A DNA stretch of 64,000 nucleotides, from contig NZ_QEWP01000005.1 of assembly GCF_003121985.1 (NCBI RefSeq), positions 1 to 64,000 of the forward strand. Direction: 5' to 3'. This DNA is from Marinilabilia rubra. GTDB lineage: Bacteria > Bacteroidota > Bacteroidia > Bacteroidales > Marinilabiliaceae. The notes beneath the pieces are model-generated. The model searched no databases and was not told the DNA's origin. It saw nothing but the letters and a program-made list of their open reading frames with translations. How positions within the stretch are numbered: the stretch's first letter is position 1; the number at the start of each line of letters is the position of its first letter. Of this stretch, positions 23,638-35,788 are shown in pieces. A program made the position numbers and the translations under genes.

Positions 23638-25992
23638 TTATCGACCTGCTTTCATAACGACCTTTTCAGTTTTAACAATACCTCCGACATTTACTTTCAC
23701 CACATAAACCCCACTGTTGCAGGGCAGTTCCACTTCAGCTTCCGTACTTCCGGTATTAATGCTCCTCATCAGACGACCAGTCATGTCTAATACTTCTATG
23801 ACTGCCTCGGATGACTGCAGCAATCCACGACTGATTTTTATCAAAGCGTAATCCTGCTGACCGATAATGGTGATATCTTCTTTTTCTGAGATATTCGTAT
23901 TTTCAACACTGGTAGCTACCTGTTTTACTTTTTCCAGATGAAGCACAAACCGGTCATGATCATCGCCCATTTGATCAGGTGTATATACATATTCACTTAC
24001 CTCACGAAGATTAATCCAGGCCCCGGATTCTGTGTCTTGAAGAAACAGATCATAGGTGGGATTTGCGAAATCGCTCAAATCAAAGCTCAAAGTAACATTT
24101 CCTTCCACACGGTTTCTTACGCTAACAGGAATTTCATAATTCTGTTCTGAAAGAGCCGGTAATCCGTTAATGGATAAATCGGTATTTCCAACTTTGGTGT
24201 AGACTTCAGGTACGTTCTTTGAACCATTGAATCTTTTTTCACCATCTTCCTCTCCCACATTGCTTGACAGGCCTTCGCTAAAGAATAGGACAGTTTCATC
24301 TAAGGCATATTCATTCTGGGTCCGGATACGGATCATCTCCAAATCATTGCTTTCGGCTGAAGTGCTTTTTAATGGTGCGCTGTTATCCTTTACCCTAGCT
24401 GATTTTTTTACCGTTAAGGTTGCTTTCTCTGTGGTTTGTTTAATCCATACGGACTGATAAGCAGGAATATGTCCTTTGTTTTCACTATTGTAACCTTCAA
24501 CCTGAGGTGTTACAATATCAAATTCACCATTATAGGTTTGCACAACTCTTTCATTACCTATTGAAACCCAGCTCCAGATGGTATTGGAAAAGCCTTCACG
24601 CTCCCAGCCGTCTGCATTATCCCAACTCCAGTCAATGGCTGTTGGGTAAGGATTCCCTAAAAGGTGATAGCCGGGGTCATTAAATTCTTTAACGATTTCA
24701 TCATTGTTTACCTCACCTGTAAAATCCAACTGTTTGGCATTGTCGTAATAATAAGCAACCACACCTTGCAAAGGATCAATCCCCCTTTGGTTATTCACAT
24801 CTTCCTGGCTTAACCTCACCCACTGCCATCGGTTATTCACTACCTCGAAAACATATACATAATCTTTATCTGCATTTTCTGATGGTTTAAACCAACCTGC
24901 TTCTGCATTTTTCAATGGTGCACTCATGTACCAGTAACGATCCTCCTGCAACAACATTTTCACATTGGCTTTTCCCGGCTTTGAAGCATTGTCGGGCAAC
25001 AACAAAGAAGAAAGGTTGTCAAACTCAGATTCTAAAACAAATAAACCATCATTTTGAACATCTTCTGTTATTTCCAAAGTAGAACCGACATTCAATACTA
25101 AACTTGATCCCTCTGCTATCGACAGCGATGAAATAAGAACATCACCATCAATAACCGGAGAAACAACTCCCGACTCAATCTTAACAGAAGATTCTATTCC
25201 AGGGATTTCCTGGTTTTTCCAGTTCGTCTGGTTAAACCAATCATTATCTGTTCCACCAACCCATGTGAAAAATGCAGGTACCAGCCCAACATTCTCTACT
25301 ATTTCTTCAAGAACCGATCCTTCTTCATTGATTACAAAATCATCAAGATTACCATAATCTCCGTTTTCAATAATACCCCAACCAGGAGAAGTGATATTGG
25401 CCTCAGGATCCAATATATAAATATCATCGCTTTTGGCATTCAAACCTCCTCCAAGGTGAGAAAAATCGCCACCCACAACAAGGTTTCCTTTATTCTGAAC
25501 CTGAGTGCTGGAAGAAGTTGAGAAGTCCCCTTTGACTATAACATCACCGTTGGTTTTGAAGCTGCTTCCAGTTGATGATAAATTACCATGAACAATAAGG
25601 ATTCCACCCTTTTTCACAGAAATTCCGGCAGAACCTTCAAGATTTCCAAATATTTCCACCGTTGCCCCATCTTCAATAGTTAAGCCGCCCCATTGATTAT
25701 TGGAATAGTTTCCTGACACATTTAATATACCATTAACGGTTACGGTTACCGGATTAAGATTCCCATTGCGCGAAATCGTACCATTAATGGTCATTTCCTT
25801 ATTGATGTTCTCAAAATCGGAAGGTATGTTATTATTGTCCCAGGCATTGGAGTCTTCAAAATCACCCTGGAAATTTGAGTTTGTAATGTAAGTATTGTTG
25901 TTTCCGCCGTTGCCATTACCGCCTTTTTTAGCAACGACATCAAAACTAAAGAAAAAAATTAACCCAATTAAAGTTAAACTAATCCGTTTCAT
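23638..25992 (-). CDS. Short T9SS-secreted paralogue C
   Basis: A 784-aa member of the array. Residues 1-21 form a signal peptide ending VVA, followed by KKGGNGNGGNNN. Residues ~40-240 are a single short solenoid of repeats with the pattern 'v-x-G-d-x-(s/t)', for example VIVKGDFSTSSS and LVVGGDFSHLGG. At about residue 244 the protein enters the C-terminal block common to all four (WVGGTDNDWFNQTNW, RYWYMSAPLKN, YHLLGNPYPTAIDW). It ends in a T9SS type A sorting domain (VLDMTGRLM, SGVYVVKV, KTEKVV). Its sequence is clearly more diverged from A, B and D than those are from one another. It appears to show a minimal architecture of the family: one solenoid plus the export module. It has its own leader motif and terminator, so it is probably transcribed alone. 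Confidence 0.88.
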   Translation of the reverse strand: MKRISLTLIGLIFFFSFDVVAKKGGNGNGGNNNTYITNSNFQGDFEDSNAWDNNNIPSDFENINKEMTINGTISRNGNLNPVTVTVNGILNVSGNYSNNQWGGLTIEDGATVEIFGNLEGSAGISVKKGGILIVHGNLSSTGSSFKTNGDVIVKGDFSTSSSTQVQNKGNLVVGGDFSHLGGGLNAKSDDIYILDPEANITSPGWGIIENGDYGNLDDFVINEEGSVLEEIVENVGLVPAFFTWVGGTDNDWFNQTNWKNQEIPGIESSVKIESGVVSPVIDGDVLISSLSIAEGSSLVLNVGSTLEITEDVQNDGLFVLESEFDNLSSLLLPDNASKPGKANVKMLLQEDRYWYMSAPLKNAEAGWFKPSENADKDYVYVFEVVNNRWQWVRLSQEDVNNQRGIDPLQGVVAYYYDNAKQLDFTGEVNNDEIVKEFNDPGYHLLGNPYPTAIDWSWDNADGWEREGFSNTIWSWVSIGNERVVQTYNGEFDIVTPQVEGYNSENKGHIPAYQSVWIKQTTEKATLTVKKSARVKDNSAPLKSTSAESNDLEMIRIRTQNEYALDETVLFFSEGLSSNVGEEDGEKRFNGSKNVPEVYTKVGNTDLSINGLPALSEQNYEIPVSVRNRVEGNVTLSFDLSDFANPTYDLFLQDTESGAWINLREVSEYVYTPDQMGDDHDRFVLHLEKVKQVATSVENTNISEKEDITIIGQQDYALIKISRGLLQSSEAVIEVLDMTGRLMRSINTGSTEAEVELPCNSGVYVVKVNVGGIVKTEKVVMKAGR

Positions 25993-26270: not shown

Positions 26271-26308
26271 GCCCCCAAAGTCCCCCTTTGGGGGATTTAG
26301 GGGGCCCC
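26271..26308 (+). repeat. Dispersed G-rich repeat, copy 4, inserted in the end of gene D
   Basis: CCCCCAAAGTCCCCC, TTTGGGGGATTTAGG and GGGCC together separate the GGGGCC and CCTCCCTG that are contiguous in A and B. The stop codon of gene D (26297-26299) lies inside the repeat. Confidence 0.75.
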
Positions 26309-29300
26309 GACTACTTTCTCAGTCTTCTGCTTTCCACCGGCGGTTACTTTTACAATATACATTCCGCTGTTAGCTGGCACAGCAATCTCTGTTTCCTGCT
26401 CAGTGGTGTTTTTTCGCTCTATCAAACGACCGTTCATATCCAACAGATCAATAACTGCATTTCCGGCACTCAACAACTCATTGCTGATGGTCACTAACGC
26501 ATATTCATCTTTTCCGACAATGGTAATATCACCTGCAGCTGAGGACTCCGGATTCTCCACACTGGTCGGCACCTCTTTAACTTTATCAAGATGAAGCACA
26601 AACCGGTCGTGGTCATCGCCCATTTGGACAGGTGTATAGGCATACTCGTTGACATCCCTGAGATCAGTCCACGCACCTGCTACTTTATCTTCCAGCAATA
26701 CATCATAGGTTAAGTCGGTAAATTCATCAAGGTCAAAGACCAATCTGACTTCACCTTCTATACGGTTGCGAACACTTAATGCGTAGGCATTTTCCTCAGA
26801 ACTCAAAACAGGCTGGCCATTGATGGCCAAAGCCTGGGTATTTAGTCTTGTGTATACTTCAGGTACTTTCTCTGAGCCATTGAAACGTTTCTCTGAGTCT
26901 TCAACTCCGGTGCCGGAAACAAAGCTATCGCTAAAATAAAGCACCGTGGCATCCATAGTATACTCATTCTGAGCTTTAACTCGAATCATTTCAAAGGAAC
27001 TCTCTCCCGATGAAGCACTCTTCAGTGGTGCATCGCTGTTCTTTACACGAGCAGCACGTTTAACGGTCAACGGAACAGACGTTTCAGACTCCTGTTTCAC
27101 CCATACTGCCTGATATGGAGGGATATGGCTCATAGTAGATGCATCATAACCGTCAGGTTCCAGCGTCCAAACACCAGGTAAGATATCTCCGTTATTATTA
27201 TAGGTCTGGATGATACGGATACCACCATAAGTAATCCAACTCCAAATAGTATTAGAGAATCCATCTCGTGTCCAACCGGCTGGGTCTTCCCAGTCAATAG
27301 CTGTCGGATATGGGTTTCCTACCAGGTGATAACCGGGATCATCAGGCGTCACTGTCAAATCTGTATTTTGAACCGTGCCTGTGCAATCCAGGTGTTTAGT
27401 ATCTGTATAATAATACCCAACAACACCCTGCATATCGCCTATCGGACGATTGTTATCCACATCTGTCTGATCCAGACGAATCCATTGCCAGCGGTTATCA
27501 ACCACTTCAAAAACATAAACATAATCTTTACTGACATCCTCTGACGGTTTGAACCATCCGGCTACAGTATTCTGAAGCGGGCTGCTCATATACCAGTAGT
27601 GATCGGGATCAAGAGTCAGTTTTACATTGACATTACCGGAGTTGGTCATAGTCTCTGGTAATATCAGTGAGGATAAGCTGGAATTGGTCGATTCCAAGAC
27701 AATGGTACCAGCATTATCAACATCACTAATCACTTCAAGAGAAGCTCCGGGTCTAACCGTTAATACTTCACCTGTTGTAACAGTTAAAACATCGCAGGAA
27801 GCATCACCTGCATCAATCACAGGATAAGTTGCACCCGTTCCATCAATAATAGCAGGATTCGCAGCAGATGGAACCATCCCTGAACTCCAGTTGGCGGAAG
27901 TAAACCAGTCGGTAGGGCTGGTTAAATCATCGCCCTCCCATGTATATGGTGCAATAGATGCAACTCCAAAGGTAAGATACCTTGAAGAAGAAAAAGTAAC
28001 AGGACTGTCACTGGATGTGGTGGCCATTCCAGTATTTACTGTTCCGGTAACTTCATCCCACTGAGATGACACAAATTCCACAATCAAAGCATTATCTTCA
28101 TTAACGCCACTCTCTCCGTCAAATCTCATATTAACATTAGCATCAAGGGCTGATGAAGGAGCTGTTACATTCCAGTATTCATTATTGCTTACCCATTCGA
28201 CACCTGTGCCATAGGTGGCAGAGATATCATCTTGTGCTGATGAATTATAGTATTGAGCTGTCCAATAACCACCTGCCCCTGCAACAGGTTTAATTTCAAT
28301 ATTTCCAAATCTGGATACATCACCAACGGGGAAATCAAATGAAGAACTTTCATTTATCTTTTTGCTCATTGGTCCATCTACAAAACTTGAGGAACTGCCT
28401 CCAATCACTGCATCTGTTGCAGTATTATTAATAGTTAGCATTGTGGAAGAACTGGAAATAATATCTCCCGAGGTAAGCAGCAAGTCGTTATCTATTTCGA
28501 TATTCGATTGAAGCTCTAATCCGGAAGTATTATTTATTTCCAGGTTATAGAATGCACCACCCGATGCGGTTGTAAAATCAGTTGTTCCTGAAATCACCTG
28601 TGTTGAGGAACCGTTAAAAGTAATGGTTGGCACTTTGGGGTCAACATAAGTTCCTGCATCAAATGATCCGGAATTAAAAGTAAGATCACCCATTATAGAG
28701 ATACTGTTATTATGAGTGTTCTCTATATCCGGGCCATTTAGAACTAAATCACCATACAGTTGAACGTCAATATTAGGCAGTGTTCTTGTTCCAGTTCCAG
28801 TAAATACAACACTATTAACATTAGGTATTTCACTTAACACGTCATAATTATCAGTCCCTGCATATTCTAACACTCCTCCATCAGAAGAAAAGAAACTATC
28901 GTAAGAGCCGGCAGGCAAATCCCCACTTTGAAGTTTCAACGTTCCGGTTCCAAAAACATCTCCAAGTCGGTGTCCTATTGAAGTACCAATATCAACAACT
29001 CCTGTTGGATTAATAAAGGACCTGTAAGCTGCTTCAAAATTATCCGGAAATGAAAGCGTGTGATTAACATAAATAATGGAGCCTCTGGGTCCTCCTGCCG
29101 GAACATCAACTCCGGCCGAGCCTGTCGTTCCTGTTGATGGATCATAAGTTGCCCATGTCGATGTATTCGAATAATTACCGTCAGTTACTGTAATATAAGA
29201 AGGAACCTGATCCGGTATTGCACTTTCAATACCAGCAGTATAATCCCCGTCAATACCATTATCACCGGTCCCTGAAAAAGTAAATATCGAAAGGTCATTA

Positions 29301-32300
29301 GCACCAGCCTGTCCCTGAAAATCATCTGTTGTAAATTTGTTCCAGTCTGTGCTCTCTAATAAAATCCGCGCTGTAATGTATTGAGTGGTATCACCAGGAG
29401 CATCCCCGTCATTAGAATACATTTTTGCCTCCCCTGAAAATCCGGAGATACCATCTGCATCTAATGTCCAGTTATACTGCAATACATTTCCCTGATCTGC
29501 CGTTGGAACAGAAATATGTGGCTCATCAGCGGCCTTTACTCTGATAGATCCCGTATTATTACCATTTTCAGTTATGTCCATTACAACGGGAGTATACTTC
29601 CCTAAGGAGCCAATTGGATAGGTAAACGAAGTAGCTGACGAAATAACCGGGAACGTTTTTTTAATTCCATTATCAGTAAACGACAAATTAGTCTGAATCA
29701 TATTGGTATTTGAGAAAGGATTCACTTCCTCAATGGAAGCATTCTCTCCAAAAACCAACAGGTTGCGTCCAATGTCGAAAACCCCATCTACCATTCGTAG
29801 TTTGTTGGTGAAGTTAACCGCTCCTGATTGAGTCGGCAACACAACGCCATTTCCGTTGTTAATGGTCAAAACAGAATATGACCCACTTCCTGAAATTTGT
29901 TGAATATCGGAACCGGCCATAACAATTCCCTGACTTGGATCTGTACTTGCTGTAGTAACATTATTGATCAAATCACCAAGCACGGTCAGATCATATGTAC
30001 CGGTATTCAAAGCTCCGCTGCTTAACGTCAAGTCATTTGAAACAGTAATACCCCGACCTAATACCAAAGTTCCGGAACCGGTTTGCTTTATAACATCTGC
30101 AAAAGTAGTTATACCAGTTCCTGATATTGTCTGGTCTGATGCTCCTGTAAAATAAGTAGTATTATTATTAGCGGTATAAGTCCCGTTGTTGGTTAAGTCT
30201 CCATTCAAAGTCAAATCCAACCCATTGGCATTAAAGGTTGTATTAGCTCCGATGGTTAAATTACCGTTGAGCGTATGTCCCTGAGTCAATAATTTCAATT
30301 CATTTCCTGTTCCTCCTGAGATAGAAACATCGTTCAGATTCTGAGGAGCATAAATTCCAAAAGTTTCATCCGAAATTGTGGCACCATCAATATCAAAACC
30401 ACAACGCCCGGTATAGTTCACAGTTTCAGGATTAAAATACAAGGACGGAACCAATGTACTTCCATTGGAAGAATGAATCGTTATAGCATCGCCATCATTC
30501 TGAGAGAATGAACTTCCTGTACCAAGAATTTCAAACATACCGCGGGTGCTTTTAATATCAGCACCTACTGTACCTATATTAACATTACCACCATCTTGAA
30601 CAAATGTCAAAACGCCTTCATCTGAGTTGGTAGACCGGCGAATCTGATCACCAACAGATAAAGTTCCTAAGTTGGTTACTTCAAGATTAGCATTGCCAGA
30701 TGAAGTAAATTCAATGAAACTACTATTAGATGTGCCACCGGCCGCAGTAGAACCATCTATATTGGCTGTACCGCCATTTATAATTAAGGACCCATTCAGA
30801 TTTATTCCTGAATTTCCGGATGCATTTACAGTACCGGCTGTAACTTCCAATACAGAACCTGAAGGAATTTCAAAGTTGTTGCCACCTGTTGTCAGGTCAA
30901 TATTAATCAAGGCATTGTTCAAATAACAATCACCTGAAATTAACGTTAAGGCTTTAGTGGCTCCATTGGTTGAAGCACCTAGCGAAAAATCTGAAGTAAA
31001 GTCTGTATAAACTCCCGTTGATTTAGCAATAACTGTCCTATAAAAACCAGCAACATTCCCACTGGAGCTATAGGTGGAATTTGTATCACCCTGGAAATAA
31101 ACAGATAGATTACCACTGGCAAAATCTATATTACCACTACTTCCCAAATCTATGTTTCCGTCAAGATAAAGATAGTTTTCCGTACCACCGGAGGCGTTAA
31201 AAGTCCCAGTTCCTGTAAAAGAAATATTGCCATCAACATCCATATACCTTATTCCAGTCGATTCATAGGTTAAAGTACCGGAGTTAATGCTCACATCTCC
31301 TCCAACAGAAACAAACTCATCATTATTGCCATCCAAAAAGAAATCACCACTCTCGACTGTTAAATCTCCATTGACAATAAGATTCATACTATTGGTCGTT
31401 TGCGTAGTTCCTGTGGCTTCAGAAATCACAATATTTGGGTAAATGGGGACATTTGAATCGTCCGGGATAATATGGGGCCCCGCACCCGAAGTCGAAGTAT
31501 ATTCTATTATTGCTGATGCATTATTGCAAAATTCGGAATGATCTCCTGAAATATGTACAAAATCCGAGTGATAATTATAATTATTCTCATACACCAAACG
31601 GCCACCTCCTTTAATAATATCAATAGAGTGACCTGATGTTGCATGAGCTACTTTTAAAGTACCGTTTATTTCTACCTGAGAAGCCAAAGCATTGTTATTT
31701 GCAATTGTTACAATATCTCCTGCCTCAATCACCGCAACATCTGATTCTCCCGGAGGACCTACCGATGTAGTTCCATCCTGATCTCTCCAACTAGAGGTAT
31801 TCCAATCATGGCTTCCATTACTGTAATAAACATCAATCCCTGAAATAGGAATTTTTCCGTTTCCATTATCTAATCCAGCTGTATAATCGCTATTTATTAT
31901 ATTTGGATACGGTCCATAGTTTGTCGTTCCATCAAAAATCAGGGTTGTTTCATTATTTCCGTACTTATAGTCACCTACCTGCCAATCGTAGCCATTAAGG
32001 AATGCGGCTTTCAGATTCTTCAAATTGTTATTGGAAGTAAACTCAAGTCTAATTCTATTATCCTCCAAATTATCAAAACCAGAAACTCTTGTTTTCCAAT
32101 AATATGATATAACATCATCAGCTTTATTGGGATCAGTTGATGGGTGTGCGGTATTAATAGGAATAACCGTAAAGCTACCACTGGCATCAACAGAATTACC
32201 ACTTGTAGTTTTGACAACACAGGGTGAGTATTGATCTGTTCCAACAGGAAAAGTAGCATGAGTAGCTGTAATTCCGGCAGGTATTGTAAATTGCAAAGTT

Positions 32301-34651
32301 AATCCTCCATCGGAAGATTGGGGAGAATCTGAAGTTTGAAACATACAATTTATTCCCCAGGAAGTATTTGTGCTTACGGAACCTGAAACATTCAAGTTAT
32401 ACCCTCCAAGGTTTACGACCTGGTCGGTTGAAAAAATTACCTGGTCGGCGTCTACATCAGAGTCTAGAAGAACCTGCGGTGAGGCACTTCCATTATTTAA
32501 TATTAGGCGACCAAAGTTGTAGTCTTGTCCACCTGCACCTTTCAACACTTGTTGAGAAGCACCTGTTAACTCAAGCCCACCAGTTCCGGATGAAGTTAAA
32601 TCACCATTTTCAATAACCACACTATCCGTCACTTGCGGCGTAAAATCAACAACATCAAAAGCACCTCGTGAAAGCTTCAGAGTTCCTTCAATGGTTACAT
32701 TATCTGATCCTGTTAAGCTTACAGTATAAAACTGTCCTGAAGTCTCATGCCTTTCTTTAAAGACATGAAGTCCAGGCAATGTTACAGTTGCTCCTGAAGT
32801 GTTATTTATAGCAGCATCCTGTGCTCCGTTAAAAACCAGGTTTCCTGATTGTGTAAATGTCCCGGCAATATTAAAATCACCGCCAATAGAAATATCATAA
32901 CCATTGTCGTTAAAAGTTGCATTGCTGGCGATTGTTAAATCATTCGATATAGAAAGATTGGAAGGATTGCTAGTTTCCCCATACTGATCAACAACTTGAA
33001 CTTCCTGACCGGAACTACTTGCATTAATTGTTAAGTTGTACAAAGGCACAGTTGAATAAACTTCTGCCTCATTGCCTTCAGGTGAAGTAGTTGGGGTATT
33101 AAATTGAATGGTTCCTCCCGTAACATTATAATTCCCTTCTCCTGAAGCAATGCGTAGTGCGGTAATATTATGCTTATTGACAGTCGAGAATTCGATCGTT
33201 CCAGCACTCATTTCAAACACCTGATCTTCATGTGCAATGTCAAACGATGGAGATCCCCAGTTATTAGTGGGCAAAGAATGGATATGGAAAGCACCTCCGG
33301 ATTGCCTATAATTCAAGCGTCCATTAGAATCTTTTTGTCGGAGTTGAGTTGCATAAATTGTTCCCCCCTCTACAATTAAAGAAGAAGGAAAGGATACATT
33401 GTCATAGTAGGATATTCCACTTGATTCTTCGGGCAGTGTTAATGAGCCAGATGAAATTTTTAATGCCCCCCGCAGTGTAATCCCGGTCCAGTCTGCAATG
33501 TATCCATGCTCTGAAGCATCAAAAGTAGTAACACTAGCCCCATTTACGATCAACTGTCCCGTCTCAGGTATCGTAAATTCATTAGGAGCATTTCCACTCA
33601 TATTCTCTCCCAAACGGTCAATAACAATATTTGAACCTAATTCAAGCGTTCCATTTTCAATAACAATTGGTAATCGCTGCCATCCGGCAGATCCATCTGT
33701 GGCATCAGCACCAGAATAATCGGCAGATGCAACAGGTCCATAAAGATTGAAATTGGTATTTTGATCGGCATTAATACTTAACTTAAAAGTCTTGTCATTA
33801 CCCTTATCTATAAAAAGACGATACAAGTCTGTGGGCCCATTACTGACCAACGAATTATTGCTGGCTCCCAAAAATTTTAATTTCACCGCACCACCAGAAG
33901 CCTCTGCGTACTGAGAAGAATTACTAAAATCCACATTTCCTTCATTGGTAAAGTCCCCATAAACATTCAGCCAGTGAAATGCATCCCCGGTTCCAACAGT
34001 AATACGGCCGTTAGTTTCAACAATCACATCGCCATCAACAGTAACATTAAGGGAAGTCGGTCCATCATCATTAATACCAAAAGAGCCTCTCGTTACAACC
34101 AACGAACCATTTAACGACAAATCATTCTCCAGAGAGACTGTTTGCCCGCTGTTCATATCGATTTCTACATTAAAAAAGGTATTAGCAGATGCTAGAGAAA
34201 AGCTATCTCCATAAAAAACAACGGTTCCTTCTCCTTCTCCCCTGGTGGTGAAATCGGAATCGTCAGTTATAGCAGGATAGTTATCTGCTGCCATCAGAAG
34301 ACGACCGGAACCTTTTAATTCATTAAAGGTATGACCGCTTGAAGTTCTTAAATCCAATTGGCCGTATATTGTTACGGATCCACAATTTAAAGTAACATCT
34401 CTTAAAGGTGAGTCATAAGGAGCTGCTCCATCAGGCACAGTCACTGTTTTTCCACTTAAGATAATAACATTATCACCATCGGCAGGGACCGCACTAGCCA
34501 CAGACACTGCCCCTGCAGGATCTTGTGTCCATATGTCGGCATTATCCCAGTCACCACTGGCTAAAGTATAATAAGTATCCTGCCCAAACGCATCATTGCT
34601 TAAGCTCAACCCAATAAAAAGCCCAACAATTAATAAGTAAAATTTTCTCAT
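26297..34651 (-). CDS. Giant T9SS-secreted surface protein D
   Basis: A 2784-aa paralogue. The signal peptide spans residues 1-23 (ending DAFGQ). Unlike A and B it has no N-terminal LamG region and begins at once with a 'YTLASGDWDNADIWT' module (residues ~26-45) followed by 'VIILSGKTVTV', which resembles G8-like strand openers. Further 'W...W' openers occur near residues 943, 1823 and 2235, separated by long solenoid repeats. The C-terminal block and T9SS sorting domain are about 90 percent like those of A and B by eye. The protein ends KTEKVVGAP, not KTEKVVGASL, because a short G-rich repeat has been inserted and supplies the last codon and the stop. It is the first gene of the minus-strand array and has its own leader motif and terminator. 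Surface adhesin or matrix protein is the likely role; the ligand is unknown. Confidence 0.88.
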   Translation of the reverse strand: MRKFYLLIVGLFIGLSLSNDAFGQDTYYTLASGDWDNADIWTQDPAGAVSVASAVPADGDNVIILSGKTVTVPDGAAPYDSPLRDVTLNCGSVTIYGQLDLRTSSGHTFNELKGSGRLLMAADNYPAITDDSDFTTRGEGEGTVVFYGDSFSLASANTFFNVEIDMNSGQTVSLENDLSLNGSLVVTRGSFGINDDGPTSLNVTVDGDVIVETNGRITVGTGDAFHWLNVYGDFTNEGNVDFSNSSQYAEASGGAVKLKFLGASNNSLVSNGPTDLYRLFIDKGNDKTFKLSINADQNTNFNLYGPVASADYSGADATDGSAGWQRLPIVIENGTLELGSNIVIDRLGENMSGNAPNEFTIPETGQLIVNGASVTTFDASEHGYIADWTGITLRGALKISSGSLTLPEESSGISYYDNVSFPSSLIVEGGTIYATQLRQKDSNGRLNYRQSGGAFHIHSLPTNNWGSPSFDIAHEDQVFEMSAGTIEFSTVNKHNITALRIASGEGNYNVTGGTIQFNTPTTSPEGNEAEVYSTVPLYNLTINASSSGQEVQVVDQYGETSNPSNLSISNDLTIASNATFNDNGYDISIGGDFNIAGTFTQSGNLVFNGAQDAAINNTSGATVTLPGLHVFKERHETSGQFYTVSLTGSDNVTIEGTLKLSRGAFDVVDFTPQVTDSVVIENGDLTSSGTGGLELTGASQQVLKGAGGQDYNFGRLILNNGSASPQVLLDSDVDADQVIFSTDQVVNLGGYNLNVSGSVSTNTSWGINCMFQTSDSPQSSDGGLTLQFTIPAGITATHATFPVGTDQYSPCVVKTTSGNSVDASGSFTVIPINTAHPSTDPNKADDVISYYWKTRVSGFDNLEDNRIRLEFTSNNNLKNLKAAFLNGYDWQVGDYKYGNNETTLIFDGTTNYGPYPNIINSDYTAGLDNGNGKIPISGIDVYYSNGSHDWNTSSWRDQDGTTSVGPPGESDVAVIEAGDIVTIANNNALASQVEINGTLKVAHATSGHSIDIIKGGGRLVYENNYNYHSDFVHISGDHSEFCNNASAIIEYTSTSGAGPHIIPDDSNVPIYPNIVISEATGTTQTTNSMNLIVNGDLTVESGDFFLDGNNDEFVSVGGDVSINSGTLTYESTGIRYMDVDGNISFTGTGTFNASGGTENYLYLDGNIDLGSSGNIDFASGNLSVYFQGDTNSTYSSSGNVAGFYRTVIAKSTGVYTDFTSDFSLGASTNGATKALTLISGDCYLNNALINIDLTTGGNNFEIPSGSVLEVTAGTVNASGNSGINLNGSLIINGGTANIDGSTAAGGTSNSSFIEFTSSGNANLEVTNLGTLSVGDQIRRSTNSDEGVLTFVQDGGNVNIGTVGADIKSTRGMFEILGTGSSFSQNDGDAITIHSSNGSTLVPSLYFNPETVNYTGRCGFDIDGATISDETFGIYAPQNLNDVSISGGTGNELKLLTQGHTLNGNLTIGANTTFNANGLDLTLNGDLTNNGTYTANNNTTYFTGASDQTISGTGITTFADVIKQTGSGTLVLGRGITVSNDLTLSSGALNTGTYDLTVLGDLINNVTTASTDPSQGIVMAGSDIQQISGSGSYSVLTINNGNGVVLPTQSGAVNFTNKLRMVDGVFDIGRNLLVFGENASIEEVNPFSNTNMIQTNLSFTDNGIKKTFPVISSATSFTYPIGSLGKYTPVVMDITENGNNTGSIRVKAADEPHISVPTADQGNVLQYNWTLDADGISGFSGEAKMYSNDGDAPGDTTQYITARILLESTDWNKFTTDDFQGQAGANDLSIFTFSGTGDNGIDGDYTAGIESAIPDQVPSYITVTDGNYSNTSTWATYDPSTGTTGSAGVDVPAGGPRGSIIYVNHTLSFPDNFEAAYRSFINPTGVVDIGTSIGHRLGDVFGTGTLKLQSGDLPAGSYDSFFSSDGGVLEYAGTDNYDVLSEIPNVNSVVFTGTGTRTLPNIDVQLYGDLVLNGPDIENTHNNSISIMGDLTFNSGSFDAGTYVDPKVPTITFNGSSTQVISGTTDFTTASGGAFYNLEINNTSGLELQSNIEIDNDLLLTSGDIISSSSTMLTINNTATDAVIGGSSSSFVDGPMSKKINESSSFDFPVGDVSRFGNIEIKPVAGAGGYWTAQYYNSSAQDDISATYGTGVEWVSNNEYWNVTAPSSALDANVNMRFDGESGVNEDNALIVEFVSSQWDEVTGTVNTGMATTSSDSPVTFSSSRYLTFGVASIAPYTWEGDDLTSPTDWFTSANWSSGMVPSAANPAIIDGTGATYPVIDAGDASCDVLTVTTGEVLTVRPGASLEVISDVDNAGTIVLESTNSSLSSLILPETMTNSGNVNVKLTLDPDHYWYMSSPLQNTVAGWFKPSEDVSKDYVYVFEVVDNRWQWIRLDQTDVDNNRPIGDMQGVVGYYYTDTKHLDCTGTVQNTDLTVTPDDPGYHLVGNPYPTAIDWEDPAGWTRDGFSNTIWSWITYGGIRIIQTYNNNGDILPGVWTLEPDGYDASTMSHIPPYQAVWVKQESETSVPLTVKRAARVKNSDAPLKSASSGESSFEMIRVKAQNEYTMDATVLYFSDSFVSGTGVEDSEKRFNGSEKVPEVYTRLNTQALAINGQPVLSSEENAYALSVRNRIEGEVRLVFDLDEFTDLTYDVLLEDKVAGAWTDLRDVNEYAYTPVQMGDDHDRFVLHLDKVKEVPTSVENPESSAAGDITIVGKDEYALVTISNELLSAGNAVIDLLDMNGRLIERKNTTEQETEIAVPANSGMYIVKVTAGGKQKTEKVVGAP

Positions 34652-35154: not shown

Positions 35155-35262
35155 TCCTACCATTCTTCGGGGCTTGTTCGGCCTTTCTTCGGCATTTGTC
35201 CGACTCTATAGGGCCGAAAAAGTGTCGAAGAACAGTCGAACAAAGGTCGAAGGAGGTACGAC
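35155..35262. repeat. Inverted array of 11-bp phased TTCGG/CGAA units (array 1)
   Basis: TTCGG or TCCG cores start at 35166, 35177, 35188 and 35199, exactly 11 bp apart. After a short centre, (C/T)CGAA or ACGA cores start at 35214, 35225, 35236, 35247 and 35258, again exactly 11 bp apart. The two halves are imperfect inverted copies. The six bases between cores vary. No coding frame is conserved across it. Confidence 0.85.
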
Positions 35263-35276
35263 TGAGGGACAAAGGA

Positions 35277-35311
35277 AAATAAATGAAACCTCGAAGAGAT
35301 TTCATTTATTT
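35277..35311. repeat. Perfect 12-bp hairpin between the two arrays
   Basis: AAATAAATGAAA and TTTCATTTATTT are exact inverted copies separated by an 11-nt loop (CCTCGAAGAGA). It is AT-rich and lacks a GC stem, so an ordinary terminator is unlikely. Confidence 0.8.
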
Positions 35312-35348
35312 AATGGAGAATGAAAGGTTAAAAACAAGATCCCGGTTG

Positions 35349-35546
35349 TTCGATGATTCTTCGGACCTGGTTCGGACCTGGTTCGGGACTGCTTCGGAGC
35401 AGATTCGGTGTTTCTTCGGTTGTTCTTCGGTCGGGCTTCGCTTCTTATAAGGAACGAAGGATAAGCGAAGACGAACCGAAGAGCAACCGAAGCAGGTACG
35501 AAGCAGTACCGAAGCAATCCCGAAGGTGGGACGAATGGCAACCGAA
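35349..35546. repeat. Inverted array of 11-bp phased TTCGG/CCGAA units (array 2)
   Basis: Nine TTCG cores start at 35349, 35360, 35371, 35382, 35393, 35404, 35415, 35426 and 35437. Nine CGAA-type cores start at 35454, 35465, 35476, 35487, 35498, 35509, 35520, 35531 and 35542. Every step is 11 bp and the arms are symmetric about 35447.5 without any indel. Pairing between arms is roughly 70 percent by eye and highest at the cores. Confidence 0.88.
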
Positions 35547-35642
35547 GAAAAATCAAATAATTGACTTTGAAAGGGGAGTGTTTATTCTGTGGAGATTGTC
35601 TAAAAGTAATAAAGCAGGTTTGGGGAGTATTCAAAAGGGACA

Positions 35643-35668
35643 GATTCTTCGACAAGCTCAGAATGACT
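35643..35668 (-). repeat. Dispersed repeat word ATTCTTCGACAAGCTCAGAATGAC-type
   Basis: The stretch reads GATTCTTCGACAAG followed by CTCAGAATGAC. An inverted copy with a longer partner arm lies at 46839-46910. Such words are common intergenic repeats in Bacteroidota genomes. Confidence 0.6.
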
Positions 35669-35788
35669 CAAAACTCCAAATATTGAAAGTCTCCCAAATA
35701 AAGGTACGCAGATATAATGTGGGGTTAAAACCAATGAGAAGCCAAATACATTTATTACATTTATCCCAACAACAAAACCCCATTTGGT

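Follow-up and report, generated by a model that had tools for sequence, protein, structure and literature searches.

What maintains two inverted arrays of a four-base core, repeated at every eleventh base pair, in an intergenic region of Marinilabilia rubra? The arrays sit in a 1.1-kb gap between divergent genes, a minus-strand open reading frame (ORF) of 2784 amino acids (start 34651) and a CheB/CheR-PAS gene (35789), within the window, that is, the whole 64,000-nucleotide stretch of contig NZ_QEWP01000005.1 that was analysed. An initial annotation of this DNA had described TTCGG/CCGAA cores in exact 11-bp phase and had offered two readings of them, a transcribed hairpin presenting the same base pairs at each turn of A-form RNA, or DNA sites for an oligomeric protein along one face of the helix. 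The observation of inverted, 11-bp-phased arrays is confirmed and its interpretation is partly supported. The TTCG array is a real and constrained family of dispersed intergenic elements, operator-like by its anatomy, for which no earlier description came up among the open-licence PMC papers listed in searches.

Anatomy of the arrays and their dispersed copies

Recounting bore out the layout given for array 2, with nine cores per arm, steps of 11 bp throughout and mirror symmetry about 35447.5, within the central CTTCTTATAAGGAA (Table 1); the array is 198 bp long, and up to 18 phased sites thus stand in one element. The four and five cores attributed to array 1 are reached only when degenerate cores are counted, three and four being exact. 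The common core is the 4-mer TTCG, and the fifth base of the proposed TTCGG/CCGAA does not hold, occurring in array 2 in seven of nine left-arm and five of nine right-arm cores. The window contains 17 matches to a three-core pattern, and 100 dinucleotide-preserving shuffles of it contain none. Since 11 is not a multiple of 3, no reading frame explains the arrays, as had been stated.

Table 1. Positions of the arrays and associated features, in window coordinates unless a locus handle (L) precedes them
Feature	Position	Strand	Description
Array 1, left arm	35166..35202	+	three exact TTCG (35166, 35177, 35188) and one degenerate TCCG (35199)
Array 1, centre	35206..35211	no strand	CTATAG
Array 1, right arm	35215..35262	-	four exact CGAA (35215, 35226, 35237, 35248) and one degenerate CGAC (35259)
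AT-rich hairpin between arrays	35277..35311	-	terminator-like; possibly part of the element
Array 2, left arm	35349..35440	+	nine TTCG cores, 11-bp steps (starts 35349, 35360 ... 35437)
Array 2, centre	35441..35454	no strand	CTTCTTATAAGGAA, dyad 35447.5
Array 2, right arm	35455..35546	-	nine CGAA cores, 11-bp steps (starts 35455 ... 35543)
DUF6266 genes with TTCG array upstream	L009:4078-4710, L104:2476-3156, L156:1242-1880, L049:2827-3456, and others		
Other-core 11-bp lattices	L150:3941-5085, L142:1953-2230, L130:830-990, L120:4869-5250, L171:1-100, L188:6622-6683		GTAC, CATG, TAGTT, CTGCC, CCGAT, CCGCTTGTTGT, CCGTACATACC

The hairpin between the arrays had been called perfect. As DNA its 16-nt arms, separated by 3 nt, are 94% complementary; the description holds for the minus-strand RNA with G-U pairs allowed, in which all 16 of 16 pairs form and which scores terminator-like. 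No terminator-like sites were found inside array 1 or array 2. The arrays do not have the form of intrinsic terminators, with a GC stem followed by a T run at gene 3' ends, 21 of 91 gaps that hold an element being convergent; nor do they have that of a CRISPR array, with long near-identical repeats and unique spacers, the core being 4 bp, the spacers 7 bp and the arms mirrored. Described RNA families gave four sub-threshold matches between 34600 and 36000, the best at 27.9 bits against a cut-off of 96.

Several other repeats were noticed in passing. Two long repetitive minus-strand ORFs of the window (26297-34651, 2784 aa, and 23638-25992, 784 aa) are alike at their C-termini and probably encode surface proteins. 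A short TTCTTCGACAAGCTCAGAATGAC-like repeat lies near the arrays both in the window (35641-35670) and at L001:121-150, with an altered form upstream of the array in L156, and a GC-rich intergenic repeat of about 70 bp, CCCCGGGGATCAGGATCAACGATAATTGGAGCCCTGGATGGGCGAAAG, occurs twice near arrays on contig C27 (L001:1-80 and 1206-1281).

Searches of the rest of the genome and of relatives, which the initial annotation had proposed, were both productive. The genome itself (5.38 Mb) holds ten arrays of three or more consecutive exact cores, falling into two sub-families, one like array 2 (C2:57242, C6:48202, C27:2642, C45:198315 and the window) and one like array 1 (C12:269149, C27:3018, C56:142834, C57:59830 and the window); spacers are alike among the copies of one sub-family, which indicates that the whole mirrored unit was copied. 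The dyad pattern occurs in at least 117 stretches of named genomes, all of which, and not just the 80 with titles, were taken in by the scripts. Among the matches listed with titles, 77 of 80 stretches are from Bacteroidota (Chryseobacterium, Sphingobacterium, Flavobacterium, Empedobacter, Chitinophagaceae, Bacteroides, Marinilabilia and others) and the remaining three resemble simple repeats or chance matches; places fetched twice (L084/L126, L052/L115, L060/L143, L064/L162, L094/L246 and L148/L235, among others) were left in some counts. A blastn search of phage and plasmid records with a 221-bp element gave no match at E<=1e-5, and six IMG/VR contigs match the dyad pattern, of which by eye L204 looks real and most others chance-like.

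A mirrored CGAA partner, defined as a CGAA lattice scoring at least 12 of 16 within the next 75 bp, stands beside 43 of 46 runs of at least four cores; on their outer side 2 of the 46 have one, and after shuffling none does. The runs were drawn from 40 hand-chosen loci of the 11-bp family-genome listing, and the two arms of one element may each count. At the place of the array 2 centre, elements in relatives carry CTTATAAG, CTATAG or GC-rich palindromes, and centres are palindromic in different lineages though their sequences differ; either an RNA tip or a DNA dyad would account for such persistence. The centre gaps group near half-turns (8-9, 12-14, 18-19, 23-24 and 28-30), which is suggestive, the periods having been scanned after the fact.

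Spacing, conservation and turnover

Of 71 family genomes, 24 hold four exact cores at 11-bp spacing (backward control, 5), none holds them at 10 bp (control, 1) and 10 do so at 12 bp (control, 17), the 12-bp cases being simple repeats in many instances. An even sample of 296 genomes of the phylum gave 14 at 11 bp against 7 in the control, two of the 14 judged by eye to be simple repeats, and 9 at 10 bp against 2, led by a different, TTCGTGAAAA-type repeat of one genus. In that sample 11 bp is only mildly ahead of 10 bp, and few genomes of the phylum have the strict array form. The TTCG repeats phased at 10 bp (TTCGTGAAAA and TTCGTTTTAA) are of a different type and were seen in another Bacteroidota genus (several contigs of G169, and G284). 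Where 360 exact runs end, a further core follows at 22 bp (61 cases), 21 bp (27) or 10 bp (13) and never at 12 or 23 bp, and single-base phase breaks occur, as in L231. Steps of 11 and sometimes 10 bp fit protein sites one turn apart, as in Apl operators. A period of about 11 bp is described as often being taken to reflect the helical pitch of bacterial DNA under negative supercoiling (PMC4132750), and phasing alone is therefore no pointer to RNA.

In five Marinilabilia ortholog sets, picked by their flanking proteins (set E comprising four of five genomes, with the reduced copy L230 omitted), differences amount to 47 of 534 in cores (0.088), 261 of 1046 in spacers (0.25) and 1065 of 3128 in flanks (0.34), core columns being recognised wherever one or more sequences had an exact core, a choice that biases core divergence somewhat low. 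By position, orthologs differ at 0.105, 0.105, 0.065 and 0.036 across TTCG, at 0.28, 0.31, 0.34 and 0.20 over the next four bases, at 0.16 and 0.13 in the TT before the core, and at 0.30 in the base between TT and TTCG. The low values at TTCG and the preceding TT mark TTnTTCG as the constrained part of the unit, so that the six bases between cores do mostly vary, as had been claimed, except for the TT two and three bases before the core. Among copies within a genome cores differ 3.7-5 times less than spacers (0.044/0.218 and 0.095/0.356 for paralogs in the M. rubra genome, 0.059/0.258 for Breznakibacter copies), and gaps in aligned paralog arms are of one 11-bp unit (C6, L049, L051, L052, L057). 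The spacing counts in family genomes and the core/spacer differences of orthologs and paralogs all agree with the initial proposal that selection acts on the core and its spacing.

Both persistence and turnover of arrays occur. The locus beside a DUF2027/Smr gene has an array in five of five Marinilabilia genomes, clear in three (G000, G038, G039) and reduced in two (G036, with a one-base phase break, and G037). Four of the five M. rubra loci tested are without an array at sibling loci: no two-core run was found near the PhoH-like gene (0 of 4 sibling stretches), the methylmalonyl-CoA-mutase-like gene (0 of 3), the LpxL-like gene (0 of 3) or the aldo/keto-reductase-like gene (0 of 1), these names having been read off the sequences. 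Upstream of the PhoH-like gene, the neighbouring genes vary from species to species as well. A CRISPR-like array with repeat CTCCCAATCGTACCGTGGTGGAATTGAAAT lies upstream of that gene in one sibling (L221, G039:C33). The window locus has no clear ortholog in siblings, the best CheB/CheR match being 44%. The initial annotation would have been undone by arrays decaying in relatives like random insertions; orthologous arrays keep their cores and mostly their phase, but those four of five copies are not found at sibling loci and some copies are one base off phase.

Competing explanations

The reading as RNA supposes a long, imperfect hairpin, transcribed and A-form with 11 bp per turn, that would be the target of a double-stranded-RNA protein or RNase. 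On either strand array 2 has a much stronger fold than shuffled sequence (z -8.4 and -8.7), mirrored arms are usual, and palindromic centres are kept across lineages despite differing sequences; yet this good folding is largely a consequence of the mirrored cores, which alone would fold well, and it is the spacers that discriminate. Of 134 elements collected, 23 with TTCGAA units were set aside, and in the 111 used opposed spacers match in 1115 of 2072 cells against a permuted mean of 1103 (sd 16), a value that 486 of 2000 permutations reach; with G-U pairs allowed the figures are 1283 against 1267, reached by 311 of 2000. Partners one unit off match at 0.525 and 0.565 against 0.538 for the true ones, and partners two units off at 0.477 and 0.547. 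Dyad-centred Marinilabilia copies, with 30 of 32 centres usable, pair only slightly better, if at all, than re-paired arms (0.446 against 0.414, 56/300; with G-U, 0.563 against 0.533, 48/300). The most frequent spacer oppositions are C-C and G-G, as is expected if a base inside TTnTTCG is freely C or G, and mini-hairpins closed by UUCG tetraloops are paired less than shuffled, so that local structures of this type also fail as an explanation. As to the base-pair covariation that the initial annotation had suggested looking for, centres are palindromic with sequences that differ, as those of a DNA dyad would be too, and spacers in the 111 elements show no excess over shuffled unit order. The spacer result speaks against a selected RNA hairpin, which is distinctly unlikely, and we judge that double-stranded DNA sites fit better; a protein array on DNA, the other reading offered at the outset, is a sensible one.

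A selfish dispersed element of the REP or MITE kind would have no host function, its cores being bound by the transposase or replication protein that copies it and its conservation reflecting selection for mobility. Copies with alike interiors at unrelated places of one genome speak for it, as does the lack of any preference in gene orientation (43 tandem, 27 divergent and 21 convergent among 91 gaps with an element; 150, 72 and 37 among other gaps), and the absence of arrays from the sibling loci of four of the five copies tested also fits it. Foldback (FB) elements, which are eukaryotic, likewise have long inverted arms of short tandem repeats, with longer repeats than here. The arrays resemble REP elements with their RAYT, described as small, dispersed, extragenic and palindromic repeats (PMC3733652), but REPs are palindromes of 20-40 bp, and array 2 has 198 bp with an internal 11-bp lattice. 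Y1_Tnp (RAYT) genes occur in 19 of 24 array genomes and in 26 of 47 others, a somewhat higher share in the former, although 5 of the 24 are without one at E<=1e-8, including G017, which has 21 four-core matches; a RAYT does not seem to be a required partner. Neither target duplications nor sharp ends were recognised by eye, ortholog cores are conserved, and at the DUF2027/Smr locus an array persists in each of the five Marinilabilia genomes, though in reduced form in two; on balance a purely selfish element is possible but somewhat unlikely. Unselected 11-bp tandem duplication by slippage is already disfavoured and very improbable: adjacent units do resemble each other (0.56, against 0.38 between elements) and lattices with other cores lie in the same intergenic DNA, but slippage would give no mirrored arms, would not conserve cores above spacers and flanks in orthologs, and would not explain the absence of 10-bp arrays in the family.

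A further explanation would assign the arrays, as a regulatory or structural component, to a DUF6266 gene module that came from a phage or mobile element, with solo arrays as remnants or copies. DUF6266 came to light through neighbour clustering and Pfam, a neighbour cluster of 10 loci being this family. In a scan of 257 sources (2.14 Mb, including an 800-kb control chromosome), an array lies upstream of 12 of 12 distinct DUF6266 genes in array-bearing sources and within 1 kb in 11 of the 12; a partial 13th gene is 91 bp from its array, and the 800 kb of same-class control chromosome, G165, contain none. The sources of all 12 loci had been fetched for their arrays, so that orientation and nearness are telling here and co-presence is not, and some loci are close kin (L156/L165, L084/L085). 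Against a module, the gene is missing from most of the 195 array-bearing sources, and the sole gene found regardless of arrays, that of L254, which lies on a contig from a viral collection and is followed by a holin-family gene, shows no pair of TTCG cores in the 800 bp available upstream. We regard such a module as unlikely; the association of arrays with DUF6266 is itself real but unexplained.

Genes beside the arrays and a candidate mode of binding

Titles of DUF6266 loci, among the matches listed, include Marinilabiliaceae bacterium, Flavobacterium, Chryseobacterium, Aequorivita and Chitinophagaceae. In Marinilabiliaceae a small hydrophobic ORF lies between the array and the DUF6266 gene (seven rows, six loci), and a palindrome-like stretch, GGTAATATTAC(C/T)GT, recurs between the array and this ORF in L079, L126, L085 and L049. 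An HTH_17-like ORF was seen near four DUF6266 loci (L104, L156, L165 and L134). The structural model of DUF6266 predicts an FN3-like C-terminal domain, with residues 1-51 below pLDDT 50. Comparison with PDB sequences gave one match, at E 0.77, six DUF6266 proteins had no PHROG match, and tblastn of one DUF6266 protein against phage and plasmid records gave none; the family is not named in the open-licence PMC papers searched. SusC-like ORFs lie near 10 loci in the BLAST clustering, and by phmmer the array is on the 5' side in 8 of 8 matches in array sources, with two more matches without an array. SusC usually being the first gene of its operon, no signal was taken from these ORFs.

The reading that we favour, with a probability of about one half, is that the arrays are an operator-like, dispersed intergenic DNA element bound head-to-tail by a predicted protein, one protomer per turn. 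Each 11-bp unit would be one site for one protomer, with TTnTTCG constrained and four bases free, and head-to-tail units at one per helical turn would allow a chain of protomers to assemble along one face of the DNA. With arms opposed across a short palindrome, the resulting nucleoprotein complex would be symmetric and could extend outward into the weaker units at the ends; the mirrored arms, together with the palindromic centres, suggest that assembly would start at the dyad and proceed both ways. The outcome may be local control of transcription or of DNA architecture. A constrained 7-bp site per 11-bp unit, head-to-tail order, gain and loss of units and weaker outer units together recall the geometry of winged-HTH oligomers, and the putative binder is perhaps excisionase/BldC-like, a winged-HTH protein of the excisionase/Apl/RdfS/BldC kind. 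HTH_17-like ORFs lie near only five loci, four of which are the HMM's own seeds or their kin.

Known operators supply the analogy and its bounds. The arrays share with excisionase/BldC-type operators direct repeats about one helical turn apart. Apl of phage 186 is described as binding five and seven direct repeats at 10-11 bp, cooperatively and with spreading (PMC7498355), RdfS, BldC and Xis as binding head-to-tail (PMC11963761), and CarH as binding tandem 11-bp repeats (PMC9304148). In the operators of Apl, lambda Xis, RdfS and BldC, as described, one monomer presumably occupies each site, cooperatively and spreading to neighbouring DNA; they have few repeats in one direction, whereas the present elements have two mirrored arms, each with up to nine units, and are dispersed at many loci, and for RdfS itself the description gives no clear motif. 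The operators of CarH (MerR-like) and of SARP/AfsR are also tandem 11-bp direct repeats, but the described sites stand at defined promoters, comprise two to four repeats of a different core and show no mirrored arms.

TTCG is not the only core on an 11-bp lattice. In Sphingobacterium and one Bacteroidaceae locus the same intergenic regions hold lattices with GTAC, CATG, TAGTT, CTGCC or CCGAT, some mirrored, some outside a TTCG array, and by eye sometimes phase-continuous over hundreds of bases. With TTCG pairs masked, these loci, which had been chosen for TTCG arrays, gave 12 other-core arrays at period 11 and 0-5 at each of periods 8, 9, 10, 12, 13, 14 and 16. A broader and rather unlikely extension would be a Bacteroidota-wide class of elements, in which a predicted protein polymerises outward both ways from a palindromic nucleation site along 11-bp half-sites, the core (TTCG, GTAC, CATG, CTGCC or CCGAT) differing between lineages and between stretches of one intergenic region; this would amount to a phased-filament DNA code of general use in nucleoid or regulatory architecture.

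If the arrays are sites of filament assembly, they would link the DUF6266 family, whose function is unknown, to a cis element and would serve as ready-made baits for finding the protein that binds them. They would, on the same condition, expose an undescribed DNA-organising or regulatory system in the Bacteroidota.
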